This document shows, in pieces, positions 2,634 through 62,118 of a DNA stretch of 64,000 nt (the first letter of the stretch is position 1; each line of letters starts with the position of its first letter). The stretch covers positions 62,001-126,000 of the forward strand of contig NZ_LGKP01000015.1 of the NCBI RefSeq assembly GCF_001306135.1, written 5' to 3'. The notes below the pieces were generated by a model. It had not been told where the DNA came from. It saw only the letters and a list, made by a program, of their open reading frames with translations, and ran no database searches. The position numbers and the translations under genes are program-made. This DNA comes from Herpetosiphon geysericola. GTDB taxonomy: Bacteria > Chloroflexota > Chloroflexia > Chloroflexales > Herpetosiphonaceae.

Positions 2634-2804
2634 TAGAACATAGAGCAAAGAACATAGAACATTAGGATTTAAGGAGAGGGGTTTGATCCATGAAGTTTTT
2701 TGAGCCACAAATTACACGAATTACACGAACTCTCCTATTAAACGTAATGGTTATTGCCAATTACTCCATCCCTTATGTTCTATGCTCTATGTTCTATGCT
2801 CTTT
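2634..2804. repeat. Intergenic repeat-word cluster between trpC and ettA
   Basis: Contains the word family GAACATAGAGCAAAGAACAT (2637-2656) and its reverse-complement form GTTCTATGCTCTATGTTCTA (2777-2796). Between them is GCCACAAATTACACGAATTA (2704-2723). The two outer copies face each other and could form an imperfect stem. The right copy ends on the TAA of trpC (2803-2805). The same words recur in other gaps of this window. Confidence 0.75.
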
Positions 2805-39755: not shown

Positions 39756-40215
39756 TCAAAAGTCAGAAGGCAAAAATCAAAAAAGAATCATCGTGGAACG
39801 TAGCGGCGCAGAGTTTTACAAGGATGAATTATGAGGGATGAGGGATGAAGTTGAGAACATAGAACATAGAGCAAAGAACATAAGGGATGAAATTTAACCA
39901 CGAAGAACACGAAGAGCACGAAGGAAAATGGCTGAAGGCTCTTGGCTATTGGCTATCGGAATATAATTTGTGTAATTCGTGCAATTCGTGGCTAAAAAAT
40001 GGTTGTTGGCTGTTGGCTAGTGGCTGTGGGCTATCGGCAATAAGTTGGAAACATTAAAACCTATATCATATAGCCTTGCTTGCTCTGCGCCTCTGCGTTA
40101 AAAACTTATTGTCTGAATTGTGGGCAAATATTGTGATAGCTCCCAGCCACTAGCCTATTCTGACATTGATATTTAATTTTATTCTTCTGATTTTTGAGTT
40201 TTGCCTTCTGACTTC
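39756..40215. repeat. Intergenic repeat-word cluster, SDR to GNAT gene
   Basis: A 460-bp mosaic starting two bases after the SDR stop. Words in order: AGTCAAAAGTCAGAAGGCAA, GTAGCGGCGCAGAG, AAGGATGAATTATGAGGGAT, GAACATAGAACATAGAGCAA, AACCACGAAGAACACGAAGA, CTCTTGGCTATTGGCTATCG, AATTCGTGCAATTCGTGGCT, TTGCTCTGCGCCTCTGCGTT, CTGATTTTTGAGTTTTGCCT. This is the clearest single example, since it holds nearly every word family seen in the window. No gene. Confidence 0.85.
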
Positions 40216-41963: not shown

Positions 41964-44705
41964 CTAGGCCTCCCGACGAATGGCTACTGGCGTTGCGCCA
42001 CCTTCGACGACGCTGACCAAGCCCACATTATTAACCCCAACAGGTACGACGACCACGCCTTCGGGCGCAAGTTTGGTACGGTGAACTGGCAAACTGAGGC
42101 TGCCACGACCTGAGCTAACGGTCACGCGCTCGCCATTTTTGACCCCAAGCTTATCTGCATCAACTGGGTTGAGTGCGAGCACAGCCTTGGCTTTGCGGTT
42201 GTTCAACAAGTCGGTGTCAGTCAGCAACGCACCATCATCATACAAGAAGGTTGCGCCAACCAAGGTCCATGGACGGTCGGCAACGCTGGCTGGCGTGCTA
42301 ACGCTGAATGGCTGCAAGGTTTGGATTGAGCTGGTTTCAACCGCTGCTGGCAATTGCACACCCAAGCCACCAGTATTTTGATAGGAAGTGCCATCGAAAT
42401 AGTAGTTTTCGTTGGCTTGGCGGCCCCATTGACCAGTTGGGCCTTGCAAGCTGGCATAGCTCACGCCTTTGTAACCAGCAACATTGGCTTGAATATCCAT
42501 CAAAATTTCTGCTGGCGAAGCATACGTCCATTCGCTGCGCACCCGGGCTTTATCTTCTTCGCGGCGGGCTTGCTTGCGGCTCTTATCGCCACCAGCGGTG
42601 CTCAGCACTGCTTCAGAAACCAATTGATTGGCCAAGGCTTGCAAAATTTGCCAGTCGGGCCGAGCATTGATCGTTGGACGAATTGCTTGGCGGAAGCGCT
42701 GCACGCGGCGTTCGGCGTTGGTGTAGGTTCCTTCGCGCTCGGCAACGCTCAAGACTGGCAAGACCACATCGGCCAATTTGGCGGTTTCGGTCAAGAACAG
42801 CTCTTGCACAACCAAGAAACCAAGTTTCTTCAAGCTCTCGGCGGCAACTGGATTATCGCCAACGGGATCAACTCCAGCCACATACAGGGCTTTGAGTTTG
42901 CCTTCGCGGGCGGCGCTCAACATTTGCTTGGCATCAAGGCCTACATTGCTCAAGGCTGCGTAATTTGGCCCACGGTCTGGCCGTACACCCAAATCAAGCG
43001 CGCCACGAGCATTTGCGCCCTTGAGCAAGCTGATCAAGCCGCTATTGGCAGCGCCAGCTTTGCGGGTCATCACCAAGAGGTTGGCCAAGCCAGCAGGCAC
43101 GCTTGCGCCAGCAGTCAAGGCATCGCGACCATAGAAGATCACCAAGTTTTCGGCGCTGTTAATGAGCTCGGCAACTGCATTGAGTTTATCGGCGCTAATG
43201 CCGCTCGCTTGTTCATCGAGATTGAAGCCTTTGAGCGAGGCAACCAAATCGTTGAAGCCGCGCAAGGTCGCACGTTTGCCATCTGCTGGAGTGCTATCGA
43301 GCAATGGCTTGAGCAAGGCTGCCAAAATCGCGCTTTCGCTGCCATATTTGTAGCGCAAAGCGTGCTTTGCAATGCTATCGAGCTTGGTTGGGCGACCATT
43401 GAGCGTAATCACGCTGCCGCCACGGGTGTTGATGCCGCGAATCCGCAGCAAGTGCACTGGCGCTTCTTCTTCGGGATCGGCGCCAAACACCAGCACAACC
43501 GTGCCTTTGCCAAGGGTTGAAAGATCGGTGCCGCTGCGAATGCCATATTGGGCACCAACGTCATCAAGTGGCAAATCTAAGGCCGAGCCTGAGCGATGAT
43601 CGATATTCGCCGAGCCAAGCGTTTCGCGGAAGAAGCATTGGAAGGCGTAGAGATCTTCGTTGGCCAACGATGTGCCTGCCAAACCACCGATGGCTTTGCC
43701 GCCAGTCGTGCTGCGAATGCCATCAAGTTGTTGGGCAACGATGCTCAAGGCTTCTTCCCAAGTCGCTTCTTGCAGTTTGCCAGCCTTGCGCACCAATGGC
43801 GTGGTTAGGCGTTGCTTGCTGGTATTGAAGTGATGGCCGAAGCGTCCACGATCACACAGCCAAATTTCATTGACTGCATCGTTTTCGCGGGGCATTACCC
43901 GTTTGATATCGTTCGAGCGGGTATCGAAGGTCATGTTACAGCCGACTGAGCAGTGATTACAGACCGTTGGAATTGGCTGCAATTCCCAAACCCGAGCTTT
44001 GAAGCGAAAGTCTGCTGAGGTCAACGCACCCACCGGACAGATGTCGGTGGTGTTGCCCGAAAACTTGCTATCAAATTCTGGGTCGGATTGCGAAATGATG
44101 TGCCAAGCACGGCCACGATTGTAGAAGCCGAGCACTGGATCGCCAGCAATTTCATCTTGGAAACGCACACAGCGGGCGCACAAGATACAGCGTTCGCGGT
44201 CGAGATAAATCAAATCGCCCAGTGGTACTGGCTTTTCAAAGTGCACTTTATCGTTGTAGTCGAAGCGGGTTTTGCCCGGCCCCCAACCCATGGTCAAGTT
44301 TTGCAATGGGCATTCGCCGCCCTTATCGCAAACTGGGCAATCGAGTGGGTGGCTGGTAAGCAAGGCTTCCAACACGCCGCGCTGAGCGTGCTCAACTTCG
44401 GAATCTTGGGTAACCACAACCATTCCTTCGCTGACTGGCGTGGTACAGGCGGTTTGCAAGCGTGGCATCATCGCAATGACTGATTTGCCATCAGCGTCAA
44501 CGACTGGCTGGCGGGTGGCTGGGTCCATCTTGGGCGTGCCCACCTTGACCACACACATCCGGCACATGCCGACGGGAGCCATTTTGGGGTGATAGCAGAA
44601 CACCGGAATCAGATTTTCGACTTGACGGGCAGCTTCGACGACCAAGGTGCCTTTTGGCACCGAGACCGTCTGCCCATCAATCGTCAACGTAACCATATCA
44701 GGCAT
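41964..44705 (-). CDS. nuoG: NADH-quinone oxidoreductase subunit G
   Basis: A 913-residue iron-sulfur subunit of the peripheral arm. N-terminal [2Fe-2S] domain: CYHPKMAPVGMCRMC. His/Cys cluster site: HPLDCPVCDKGGECPLQ. [4Fe-4S] ligands: RERCILCARCVRF. Molybdopterin-oxidoreductase-like part with CNHCSVGC, the extra cluster site found in many bacterial NuoG proteins. The remainder is the inactive molybdopterin-binding fold and an MopB C-terminal domain (KLGVKNGERVTVSSGRGS). ATG 44705 with AAAGG upstream. The gap to nuoF is 618 bases, far larger than other gaps in this operon, and is filled by the GxxExxY cassette. Confidence 0.95.
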   Translation of the reverse strand: MPDMVTLTIDGQTVSVPKGTLVVEAARQVENLIPVFCYHPKMAPVGMCRMCVVKVGTPKMDPATRQPVVDADGKSVIAMMPRLQTACTTPVSEGMVVVTQDSEVEHAQRGVLEALLTSHPLDCPVCDKGGECPLQNLTMGWGPGKTRFDYNDKVHFEKPVPLGDLIYLDRERCILCARCVRFQDEIAGDPVLGFYNRGRAWHIISQSDPEFDSKFSGNTTDICPVGALTSADFRFKARVWELQPIPTVCNHCSVGCNMTFDTRSNDIKRVMPRENDAVNEIWLCDRGRFGHHFNTSKQRLTTPLVRKAGKLQEATWEEALSIVAQQLDGIRSTTGGKAIGGLAGTSLANEDLYAFQCFFRETLGSANIDHRSGSALDLPLDDVGAQYGIRSGTDLSTLGKGTVVLVFGADPEEEAPVHLLRIRGINTRGGSVITLNGRPTKLDSIAKHALRYKYGSESAILAALLKPLLDSTPADGKRATLRGFNDLVASLKGFNLDEQASGISADKLNAVAELINSAENLVIFYGRDALTAGASVPAGLANLLVMTRKAGAANSGLISLLKGANARGALDLGVRPDRGPNYAALSNVGLDAKQMLSAAREGKLKALYVAGVDPVGDNPVAAESLKKLGFLVVQELFLTETAKLADVVLPVLSVAEREGTYTNAERRVQRFRQAIRPTINARPDWQILQALANQLVSEAVLSTAGGDKSRKQARREEDKARVRSEWTYASPAEILMDIQANVAGYKGVSYASLQGPTGQWGRQANENYYFDGTSYQNTGGLGVQLPAAVETSSIQTLQPFSVSTPASVADRPWTLVGATFLYDDGALLTDTDLLNNRKAKAVLALNPVDADKLGVKNGERVTVSSGRGSLSLPVHRTKLAPEGVVVVPVGVNNVGLVSVVEGGATPVAIRREA

Positions 44706-44750: not shown

Positions 44751-45298
44751 TAGCCACGAATTACACGAATTTCACAGATTGGGTTCTTGGATAATTATTA
44801 TTTTGTCTATTCATTATTATTCAACATAAACGCTATTTTACAATTCGTTTATATTGAAGCGAATTCGCGCCAAAATTAATCAATAAACCCAAACGAAAAC
44901 CCGTTAATGTTATGTAGTTCAGTGTTTGAGCTTCATGCTTTGGATGTAAGGTTGATATTGCTTTTATTTCGATAATAATGCATGTATCAATCACAAAATC
45001 CGCAATGAAATCCCCGACAATTGCTTCTTTATAGCGAACTATCAGCGGAACTTGTTCCTCAAACACTACTTGACGTAACAAAAGTTCACGAGCTAGGGCT
45101 TTTTGATAAACTGATTCTAAAAATCCTGGCCCCAGTGTTCGATGAACTTCCATCGCCGAACCAATAACTTGATATGATAATTCTCCGTGAATAATATTGG
45201 CCATTGCTTACTCCAGTATCTGGTCAAGTGCCATGGCTCCATTTGTAAGCTACAATGTTGGCAATAATTATTCGTGTAATTCGTGCAATTCGTGGCTA
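44751..45298. mobile_element. GxxExxY cassette with inverted-repeat ends inside nuo operon
   Basis: The left end begins TAGCCACGAATTACACGAAT (44751-44770). The right end is its reverse complement, ATTCGTGCAATTCGTGGCTA (45279-45298); the arms, 21 bases when counted in full, differ at one position. One gene lies inside. The ends carry TA on the outside, as expected for insertion at TA, though this is not proof. The same end word occurs alone in the gaps near 2.7, 40.0, 59.8 and 62.0 kb. No transposase is encoded, so any movement would need a helper or another route. Confidence 0.6.
44833..45204 (-). CDS. GxxExxY-family protein (PD-(D/E)XK-like)
   Basis: A 123-residue protein with the family-naming motif GFLESVY (G-x-x-E-x-x-Y), preceded by IGSAMEVHRTLGPG. 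An ADFVIDTCIIIEIKA segment resembles the D...ExK core of PD-(D/E)XK nucleases. It ends YITLTGFRLGLLINFGA. The family is widespread and of unproven function. GGAG stands six bases before the ATG at 45204. It is in the same direction as nuo, so the operon can be read through it, but it has no known role in complex I. Confidence 0.9.
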   Translation of the reverse strand: MANIIHGELSYQVIGSAMEVHRTLGPGFLESVYQKALARELLLRQVVFEEQVPLIVRYKEAIVGDFIADFVIDTCIIIEIKAISTLHPKHEAQTLNYITLTGFRLGLLINFGANSLQYKRIVK

Positions 45299-45323: not shown

Positions 45324-46592
45324 TTAGTGCTGTGCATCGATCGCTGCATCAAGCTCAGGACGGAAGAATTTGATCGCGCTATTGACCGCTGAGACTGATG
45401 AATCGCCCAGTGGGCAGAAACACTTGCCAAGCATCTGCTTACCAACATCAGCCAGCAACTCAATATCGCCAACCCGCCCGTGGCCTTCGTCGATCCGCTC
45501 CCAAACCTTGACCAAGAAGTGCGTGCCTTCGCGACAGGGCGAACACTTGCCACACGATTCGTGTTTGAAGAATTCGTCGACCTTCAAGGCCGCCCGCACA
45601 ACCGGAACCGAGGTATCGAGCACGACCATCGCGCCTGAGCCAAGCATCGTTCCCGCAGCGGCCATATCATCCCATGTCATTGGCAAATCGAGGTGTTCCT
45701 CGGTTAGCCAGTTGGATGAAGCGCCGCCTGGAATGATGAACTTCAAGGGCAAATTCGGGTCGCGCATCCCGCCAGCCCAATCGAAAATGAACTCGCGAAT
45801 CGTGATGCCCAAGGGAATTTCATAGTTGCCAGGGTTTTTGACGTGGCCACTAATCGAAACAGCCTTGGTGCCAGGCGATTTTTCGGTGCCGAACGAGCGG
45901 AACCAATCAGCGCCTTTTTCGATAATCCGTGGCACGTTGGTCAAGGTTTCGACGTTGTTGACCACAGTTGGCTTGGCATACAAGCCAGCGACTGCTGGGA
46001 AGGGTGGCTTCAAGCGTGGCTGGCCAATTTTGCCTTCGAGCGATTCGAGCAATGCGGTTTCTTCGCCACAAATGTAGGCTCCAGCGCCGCGATGGACATA
46101 AATTTCCACATCGTAGCCTGAGCCAAACAAATTCTTGCCAATTAAGCCACGTTCGCGAGCTTCAGCAATTTTTTGCTCAAGGAAGCGTGCACCATAGGCA
46201 AATTCGCCGCGAATGTAGATATAAGCGACGTTTGCGCCAATTGCAAAGGCACTAATCACAATGCCTTCGAGCAATTGATGCGGATTTTCGTCAATAATTT
46301 CATGGTTGTTGAACGTGCCTGGCTCGCTCTCATCGGCATTAACCACCAAATATTTGGGGTTTAATTCCTTGGGAACGAAGCTCCATTTAACCCCGGTGGG
46401 GAAGCCAGCGCCGCCACGACCGCGCAAGCCCGATTTTTTCACTTCGTCGATAATGGCGGCTGGAGTCATGCTGGTCAAGGCTTGCTTGGCCATTGCATAG
46501 CCACCATTTGCCAGATACACATCGAGATCGCGAATATTTTCAATATCGCGATTGCGCATCACAATATGTTCTTTGATTTCTGTCTTAGGCAT
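45324..46592 (-). CDS. nuoF: NADH-quinone oxidoreductase subunit F
   Basis: A 422-residue subunit carrying FMN, the NADH site and one [4Fe-4S] cluster. Markers: SGLRGRGGAGFPTGVKW (FMN/NADH glycine-rich loop), NADESEPGTFNNHEI, YIYIRGEFAYGA, GAGAYICGEETALLESLEG and the cluster ligands ESCGKCSPCREGT plus a later Cys in MLGKCFCPLG. The start is ATG 46592 with GGAG five bases upstream, rather than GTG 46598. Its 5' gap to nuoE is 98 bases of repeat words; its 3' gap holds the GxxExxY cassette. Confidence 0.96.
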   Translation of the reverse strand: MPKTEIKEHIVMRNRDIENIRDLDVYLANGGYAMAKQALTSMTPAAIIDEVKKSGLRGRGGAGFPTGVKWSFVPKELNPKYLVVNADESEPGTFNNHEIIDENPHQLLEGIVISAFAIGANVAYIYIRGEFAYGARFLEQKIAEARERGLIGKNLFGSGYDVEIYVHRGAGAYICGEETALLESLEGKIGQPRLKPPFPAVAGLYAKPTVVNNVETLTNVPRIIEKGADWFRSFGTEKSPGTKAVSISGHVKNPGNYEIPLGITIREFIFDWAGGMRDPNLPLKFIIPGGASSNWLTEEHLDLPMTWDDMAAAGTMLGSGAMVVLDTSVPVVRAALKVDEFFKHESCGKCSPCREGTHFLVKVWERIDEGHGRVGDIELLADVGKQMLGKCFCPLGDSSVSAVNSAIKFFRPELDAAIDAQH

Positions 46593-46600
46593 AAGCACTC

Positions 46601-59724: not shown

Positions 59725-59995
59725 TATTGATTCACGAAGACATAGACCCGCGAAGAGTACAAAGTTATTTTTTAGCCACGAATTGCACGAATCGCACGAA
59801 TAATTATTATTTTTGCTACAGATTCACAGATGTTGAGGAATATGATCGTGCTCTCCCAACGCCAATAGCCTATAGCCATACTTCCTCTGCGCCTCTGCGT
59901 TAAAGCCTTACCCTTACTATCTCCAACCACCTAGCCCCTGATTACTTTTGAATTCTGGTTTCATCCCTCATAATTCATAATTCATCCTTATAAGA
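59725..59995. repeat. Intergenic repeat-word cluster between P450 and ABC exporter
   Basis: Words: GATTCACGAAGACATAGACC, TTTTAGCCACGAATTGCACG continuing with further CACGAAT units, AATAATTATTATTTTTGCTA, CCAATAGCCTATAGCCATAC, TTCCTCTGCGCCTCTGCGTT, TTCATCCCTCATAATTCATA. The end word of the nuo cassette is here in an isolated copy, also with T run and TA before it. No gene in 59648-60096. Confidence 0.85.
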
Positions 59996-61911: not shown

Positions 61912-62118
61912 AGGATGAAGGTACGAGCATAGAACATAGAACATAGGATTCAGGGGTAGTTTTAACGCAGAGGCGCAGAGGAAGTATGGCTCTTGGCTAT
62001 GGGAACAGAATCGAATACATCTGGGCTAATCCTAAAAAATAATCATTCGTGCAATTCGTGGCTCAAAACGGAGCCTTCGTGCTCTTCGCGTGCTTCGCGG
62101 TTCCATTTTTCGCCCTCT
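61903..62118. repeat. Intergenic repeat-word cluster after ABC exporter
   Basis: Words in order: GAGGGATGAAGGATGAAGGT, GAGCATAGAACATAGAACAT, TTAACGCAGAGGCGCAGAGG, GGCTCTTGGCTATGGGAACA, AATCATTCGTGCAATTCGTG, CTTCGTGCTCTTCGCGTGCT. A compact full set of the word families in about 215 bp. Confidence 0.85.

Follow-up and report, generated by a model that had tools for sequence, protein, structure and literature searches.

A GxxExxY gene between inverted words in a nuo operon and its relatives across phyla

The cassette between nuoF and nuoG

The window, the whole 64,000-nucleotide stretch of Herpetosiphon geysericola DNA analysed here, contains a cassette of 548 bp (44751-45298, minus strand) between nuoF (45324-46598, minus strand) and nuoG (41964-44705, minus strand). 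The cassette carries a gene for a 123-residue GxxExxY protein with a predicted PD-(D/E)XK fold (44833-45204, minus strand), which is oriented like the nuo operon. Its inverted ends are TAGCCACGAATTACACGAATTTCAC, continuing ...AGATT, on the nuoG side (44751-44775, plus strand) and TAGCCACGAATTGCACGAATTACAC, as read on the minus strand, on the nuoF side (45274-45298). The initial annotation described a 548-bp GxxExxY unit in the operon whose 21-bp inverted repeats match in 20 positions; the open reading frame and the arms are confirmed, and the 21-bp repeats are contained in an inverse match of 23 out of 25 positions. Alignment of six Herpetosiphon-type genomes reveals that the nuoG-side end is a hybrid in which CACGAATT and CACAGATT units are combined.

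The GxxExxY protein

The 123-residue protein matches two profiles alone, NCBIfam TIGR04256 (GxxExxY; 143.3 bits, cut-off 35) and Pfam PF13366 (PDDEXK_3; 135.3 bits, cut-off 22). Residues G25, G27, L29, E30, Y33, D69, K81, Q93, and N110 are invariant in 64 sequences, and E79, conserved in at least 90% of them, forms a D...ExK core together with D69 and K81. The predicted structure (pLDDT 93.8) is alpha-beta. Its best structural match is the Cas4-like protein SSO0001 (Z 10.2, rmsd 4.2 over 100 residues), followed at Z 7-8 by restriction enzymes and a Holliday junction resolvase; it also resembles lambda-type exonucleases, and Foldseek adds the R2 endonuclease. Sequence searches returned no solved homologue, and direct reading of the protein found no His-x-His motif of the HUH Y1 transposases. 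The earlier suggestion of a PD-(D/E)XK-like core suiting a DNA-cutting role agrees with the model, as the predicted fold and the conserved D-ExK core would fit a nuclease. Pfam (PF13366) already annotates the family with the nuclease fold. A literature search, with most subscription journals and preprints outside its coverage, found nothing on GxxExxY function and nothing that links GxxExxY genes with the words described below or prints these words.

Dispersed copies of the end word

The exact 12-mer TAGCCACGAATT of the cassette end also occurs at 39983-39994 and 59773-59784, as the solo words TAGCCACGAATTGCACGAATTACACAAATT (minus strand) and TAGCCACGAATTGCACGAATCGCACGAAT (plus strand). Another solo word, GAGCCACGAATTGCACGAAT, lies at 62053-62064 (minus strand), and a weaker one, GAGCCACAAATTACACGAATTACACGAA, at 2702-2731 (plus strand). 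Allowing up to two mismatches, the end word has 16 sites in the window as opposed to 6.1 +/- 2.2 expected, a number reached in none of 100 shuffles. Throughout the genome (6.1 Mb), GCCACGAATTNCACGAATT with up to three mismatches has 273 copies compared with 5 for the reversed control. The claim that the end word is dispersed in other gaps thus holds for window and genome alike. The TA noted outside each end is present at the window's cassette, where it is part of a common TTTTTAGCC start, but precedes only 29 of 41 copies of the word in a sample from this genome.

The gaps of this genome are crowded with many word families. Among them, the heptamer families TTTTGACTTTTGCC, AGCCAAAAGCC, and CCCTGACCCCTGA (Herpetosiphon-type gaps, L156-L172) may belong to S23P, a second protein family discussed below. 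A strict CACAGATTN triplet is absent from the Herpetosiphon contigs searched; the unit spacing varies among its aligned copies.

Cassettes in Herpetosiphon-type genomes

Only two GxxExxY genes are present in this genome. The second adjoins a gene that reads as a cysteine desulfurase, sufS, and is accompanied by inverted words of another family, CCACGAAGnnCACGAAG. In the related genome G003, AACGCAGAGGCGCAGAG words stand at either end of a third copy. The nuoF-nuoG site is occupied in all six Herpetosiphon-type genomes, by two different cassettes, and the empty site anticipated there in related strains was not seen in any of the six. In four of these genomes, the GxxExxY protein is 63% identical to that of the window, NuoF is 98-99% identical, and CACAGATT words stand at both ends in place of CACGAATT. 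Gene type and ends therefore change together at this site.

The two unlike nuo cassettes share an outer TAGCCACGAA remnant, and the hybrid word is also present. At the locus of the third copy, the other five genomes are gene-free but hold word arrays, and the gene-free gap in G002 is flanked by the same outer inverted AACGCAGAGG words as the GxxExxY gap of G003. These arrangements would fit a homing-like process, in which the words would be pre-existing targets generated in some other way, for example by slippage or gene conversion; the nuclease would cut at or near gene-free words, and the cassette would be copied in by recombination between words. Such a process also agrees with the lack of target duplication reported below. 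It is a possible explanation, though an improbable one in view of the compact word pairs and the wordless empty sites described in later sections.

Stops or a frameshift disrupt several syntenic GxxExxY copies whose end words are retained: L036 and L042/L044 in G002, and L040 in G004. The persistence of words around broken copies is as expected of a dispensable element. Clean strain-level word insertions were not found in the Herpetosiphon-type genomes, the gaps of which are too scrambled. A 72-bp insert with one word, at about 3911072 of G002:C1 (position 211072 of the joined L286-L305), has no counterpart in G004 and G006 and is flanked by 18-bp near-repeats; it is a single case of a possible fresh insertion. 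An inverted repeat element of another kind, G+C-rich and about 130-210 bp long (TTCCCTCACCCCC...GGGGGTGAGGGAAC), displays clean presence/absence sites between related Herpetosiphon-type genomes (L306-L344 in G004:C5 and G006:C5, and gaps of G003/G000; for example, G004:C5 near 111397, 222841, and 225585). Long CRISPR-like arrays with the repeat ATTCAAATAACCAAAATCCTCGGAAGGGGATTAAAAC are located at G004:C5:368000-381500 and G006:C5:342800-347200.

Inverted words bracket GxxExxY genes across phyla

A broader survey combined one-genome-per-species data (80 loci) with a Chloroflexota sample (25 loci), and 99 of the loci are usable; the loci are the best-scoring relatives and not a random sample of the family. 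Bracketing is defined by the best local alignment of the upstream flank with the reverse complement of the downstream flank, with a score of at least 28 within 300 bp. Inward-facing inverted words bracket 79% of the 99 GxxExxY loci compared with 3.8% of 262 other ORFs at the same loci (Mann-Whitney p about 6e-37) and 2.6% of 154 small ORFs. In an extended set of 149 loci, obtained by adding 40 more loci along with the Herpetosiphon-type copies as a lower-scoring extension, the inverted-repeat score is at least 30 in 112.

A common grammar underlies the words: approximately T-N-A-CC and then three CRC-VRAK-N(1-2) units. In 58 of the 60 GxxExxY flanks that are periodic, the unit measures 8-10 bp. 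The letters of the unit are specific to the locus and include CACAGAG, CGCAGATT, CGCCAAG, CACGGAG, ACAGGAT, and CACGAATT, among others. The initial annotation proposed testing whether its inverted word is enriched around GxxExxY genes elsewhere. Inverted words are strongly enriched there; the TAGCCACGAATT word is not universal, and since the letters are particular to each cassette, a search elsewhere for that word alone would have failed. The broader proposal that GxxExxY genes make up the coding portion of an element with dispersed inverted ends gains support from the bracketing and from the match between dispersed words and the resident cassette.

Other gene families were considered as candidates for bracketing. 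Among about 630 other ORFs there were few matches, which proved to be more GxxExxY or S23P genes, neighbors sharing the words, or doubtful ORFs. An orientation bias of insertion was likewise rejected, as 48 of 69 GxxExxY genes are co-directional with both neighbors and control ORFs have the same ratio. Searches for carriage of GxxExxY by phages gave zero phage matches and 8 plasmid records, and PADLOC gave no match to defence systems.

Word letters follow the protein

Words and proteins were compared for 148 loci from 13 or more phyla, with a word counted as shared at a score of at least 36. Among cross-phylum pairs, the word is common in 76% at protein identities of at least 65%, in 31% at 60-65%, and in 1-2% below 50%; same-genome pairs below 50% identity share it in 0 of 46 cases. 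The observed correlation was reached in none of 300 permutations that shuffled words within phyla. The opposite-sense control is also raised, reaching 55% where cross-phylum pairs are closest; the presumable cause is that hairpin pairs, which carry the words in either sense, are present in many flanks. Same-phylum pairs share the word in 69% of cases vs 21% for this control. Cross-phylum alignment is limited to the word, with spacers, gene distance, and outer flanks all different, the exception being a syntenic Planctomycetes pair (L086 and L094). CACAGAG is common to Rhodocyclaceae and Chloroflexota, CGCCAAG to Planctomycetes and Deferrisomatales, and CGCAGATT to Nitrococcus, Verrucomicrobia, and Planctomycetes.

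Across phyla, the letters go with the protein rather than with the host. This tracking is the strongest evidence that the protein may read the word. Taken together with a dispersed family that fits the resident cassette, it makes the GxxExxY protein the likely specificity factor. A chance or compositional artefact of a repeat-rich Herpetosiphon-type genome, an idea to which the word-packed gaps lend themselves, is refuted by the within-locus controls over many phyla as well as by the reversed-pattern controls and permutations, and retains a negligible probability.

Resident words and minis

The generic pattern CRCVRAKNNCRCVRAKNNCRCVRAK was run over 251 Chloroflexota genomes. At least 10 words are present in 26 of the 49 genomes with GxxExxY vs 6 of the 202 others (p 2e-16, a value that overstates the weight of the comparison because the genomes are related by descent and not independent). 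S23P genomes without GxxExxY resemble the negatives in their word counts. Where compared, the dispersed letters also fit the resident cassette: CGCAGAT words number 84 in G020, whose own cassette bears them, 18 in G036, where the cassette L400 has related units, and 0-3 in twelve other genomes. The association has exceptions on both sides. Some genomes with no detected GxxExxY are rich in nonad words (G209, 90; G175, 81; G058, 30) and may represent either orphan word populations or cases in which the gene was missed or lost, and some GxxExxY genomes hold few words of the CRCVRAKNNCRCVRAKNNCRCVRAK grammar.

Word pairs were surveyed in five Anaerolineae genomes, one of them covered in part. Among the pairs listed, all 22 neighboring inverted pairs under 150 bp face inward, mostly with a spacing of 14-18 bp; of the 4 inward pairs that span 460-660 bp, 3 enclose GxxExxY genes. 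In G020, 13 close inverted pairs face inward and 2 outward. The short units, termed minis, into which many of the Anaerolineae words are arranged, are inward pairs of ~60-75 bp in unrelated contexts; they are intergenic and fold as hairpins (z -5.5, -7.1, and -2.3). Such compact inward minis suggest that the word pair is itself a unit, which argues against the homing-like process. At L276-L283 of G026, an inverted word pair lies within a repeated MITE-like element with the ends GGCTCTTCAGGATTAAGTGGGG / AAGAGCC and has been copied along with it.

S23P, a second family with the same layout

The S23P family (TIGR02436), a four-helix bundle, has the same cassette layout with 7-bp words. It is bracketed in 15 of 30 Chloroflexota loci and in 26 of 28 loci from 13 genomes of other phyla including cyanobacteria, although one of those 26 scores is inflated by masked bases, which leaves 25 of 27. 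The word period is 7 in 26 of 27 and in 31 of 35 periodic flanks. S23P occurs in genomes without GxxExxY, and GxxExxY cassettes are distinct from it in their alpha-beta fold and 8-10-bp period. Flanks with inverted words of 7-bp period are seen at the S23P loci L206-L235 and L345-L374. The S23P fold is related to that of Avd, the accessory protein of diversity-generating retroelements.

A host or third-party enzyme acting in trans, such as a transposase, reverse transcriptase, or recombinase, could spread both words and cassettes; GxxExxY and S23P would then be small genes, passengers or regulators, with products that bind the words. The one cassette layout in two unrelated protein families, the kinship with Avd, and the word-rich genomes that lack a detected GxxExxY fit such hitchhiking. 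It is nevertheless unlikely, somewhat more so than homing, given that the letters track GxxExxY across phyla and the dispersed words fit the resident cassette.

The S23P words agree with the published case of Coxiella, the intervening sequence of which has three tandem heptamers, GACAGAT, before the S23P gene (PMC4990558). RNase III excises the 23S rRNA intervening sequences that carry S23P (PMC4990558). This excision and the hairpin folding of the intergenic minis would suit a non-mobile role, in which the words are RNA-processing or regulatory signals (closing stems or terminators) needed by inserted small genes and kept by selection. Rfam gives no match, the strand context equals that of control ORFs, and letters specific to each cassette with presence/absence at one orthologous site, described next, are unexpected of a general signal; a non-mobile role is accordingly very improbable.

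One site in several states

The flanks of a GxxExxY cassette in G026 were searched in 57 congeners. The orthologous gap contains the gene with words at both ends in G026, G274, and G300; nothing but a mini, an inverted pair of words from that family, in G013; the left word alone in G294; and an inverted heptad pair in G308. It is empty by sequence, without any words, in G307 and G115, and empty by gap length (about 50 bp) in G272 and G278. Empty sites, not found at nuo, are thus seen in another genus. The wordless state in G307 and G115 suggests that target words may not be a precondition at this site, which counts against a homing-like process. The flanks are about 75-78% identical, so that exact junctions are unreadable here. 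Target-site duplication, the role that the flanking TA could have played, was sought outside 74 cassettes; direct repeats are not in excess there, their lengths equaling those of a mismatched-pair null. That no target duplication is detected argues against a DDE transposon.

A proposed mode of spread

The bracketing, the word specificity, and the element-like behavior are well supported, and gene and words together resemble a very small mobile DNA system of a hitherto undescribed kind. In the reading we prefer, at a probability of roughly 60%, GxxExxY is a PD-(D/E)XK protein that recognizes its cognate words and spreads both the cassette and non-autonomous minis. GxxExxY genes would be the coding part of small mobile cassettes, and the predicted nuclease would recognize the cognate word of its cassette, which consists of three 8-10-bp units and stands inverted at both ends. 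Cutting or nicking at the words would promote spread of the cassette and, in trans, that of non-autonomous word pairs and solo words. Binding of the word, cutting there, and cutting as the driver of spread are each inferred. The lack of duplications and the hybrid nuo word suggest copying by strand exchange or repair rather than by a classical cut-and-paste transposase.

Several observations weigh against this mobile-nuclease reading. There are word-rich genomes without detected GxxExxY and word-poor genomes with it, no intermediate and no strain-level series of fresh insertions with clean junctions was found, and GxxExxY copies may hitchhike on words spread otherwise. The main difficulty for a GxxExxY nuclease alone driving spread is S23P, which has the same layout and no known nuclease activity, so that this lifestyle does not, as a rule, require a nuclease.

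GxxExxY and S23P are widespread and annotated without a role, and both gain a testable substrate hypothesis. The association also suggests owners for many short intergenic repeats. DNA specificity has changed repeatedly among the natural protein-word pairs, which makes them useful for learning how a minimal PD-(D/E)XK protein of ~120 residues recognizes DNA.

Comparison with known systems

Homing endonuclease elements insert at a conserved site that their nuclease recognizes, and alleles without the gene keep this target intact; here, the nuo site is occupied in all six genomes, and the empty sites in G307 and G115 lack words. Insertion sequences and MITEs of the DDE type resemble the cassettes in their terminal inverted repeats and non-autonomous minis; the cassettes differ in having neither a DDE transposase nor a detected target-site duplication, and their ends are tandem triplets. 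The S23P-bearing 23S rRNA intervening sequences likewise combine a small gene, a short cassette, and inverted ends, but their protein has an unrelated fold, their units are 7 bp long, and the rRNA cassettes lie in one conserved gene.

Short-period intergenic repeats are also known as cyanobacterial STRR and as the GGGAATC-type heptamers of Xanthomonas and Nostoc, which differ from the GxxExxY words in their 7-bp period. In Xanthomonas, 70-75 convergent inverted pairs of heptamers of unexplained origin are described, and heptamer repeats are described as generally not associated with mobile elements (PMC4692102). In contrast, the 7-bp words reported here are tied to S23P genes. A tentative generalization, to which we give slightly less than even odds, is that GxxExxY with 8-10-bp words and S23P with 7-bp words form one general element class unrelated to known transposases, in which each protein variant recognizes a triplet 'word code' of its own, and that a large share of the short-period intergenic repeats known from cyanobacteria, xanthomonads, and Chloroflexota can be traced to the two.

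In REP/REPIN and RAYT systems, inverted repeat copies flank a small resident gene, dispersed copies are intergenic, doublets form hairpins, and the repeat family is co-resident with a specific gene (PMC3116915). The GxxExxY gene is similarly flanked by inverted words with many dispersed copies and inward hairpin doublets. The enzymes differ, GxxExxY being a predicted PD-(D/E)XK protein and RAYT (TnpA-REP) an HUH tyrosine transposase. The repeats differ as well: the words are direct triplets, such as CACGAATTN three times over, with neither a hairpin of their own nor a GTAG/CGTC tag, whereas REP is a tagged palindrome. The GxxExxY system is best explained as functionally analogous to RAYT-REPIN but outside that group, as both enzyme and repeat are unrelated.
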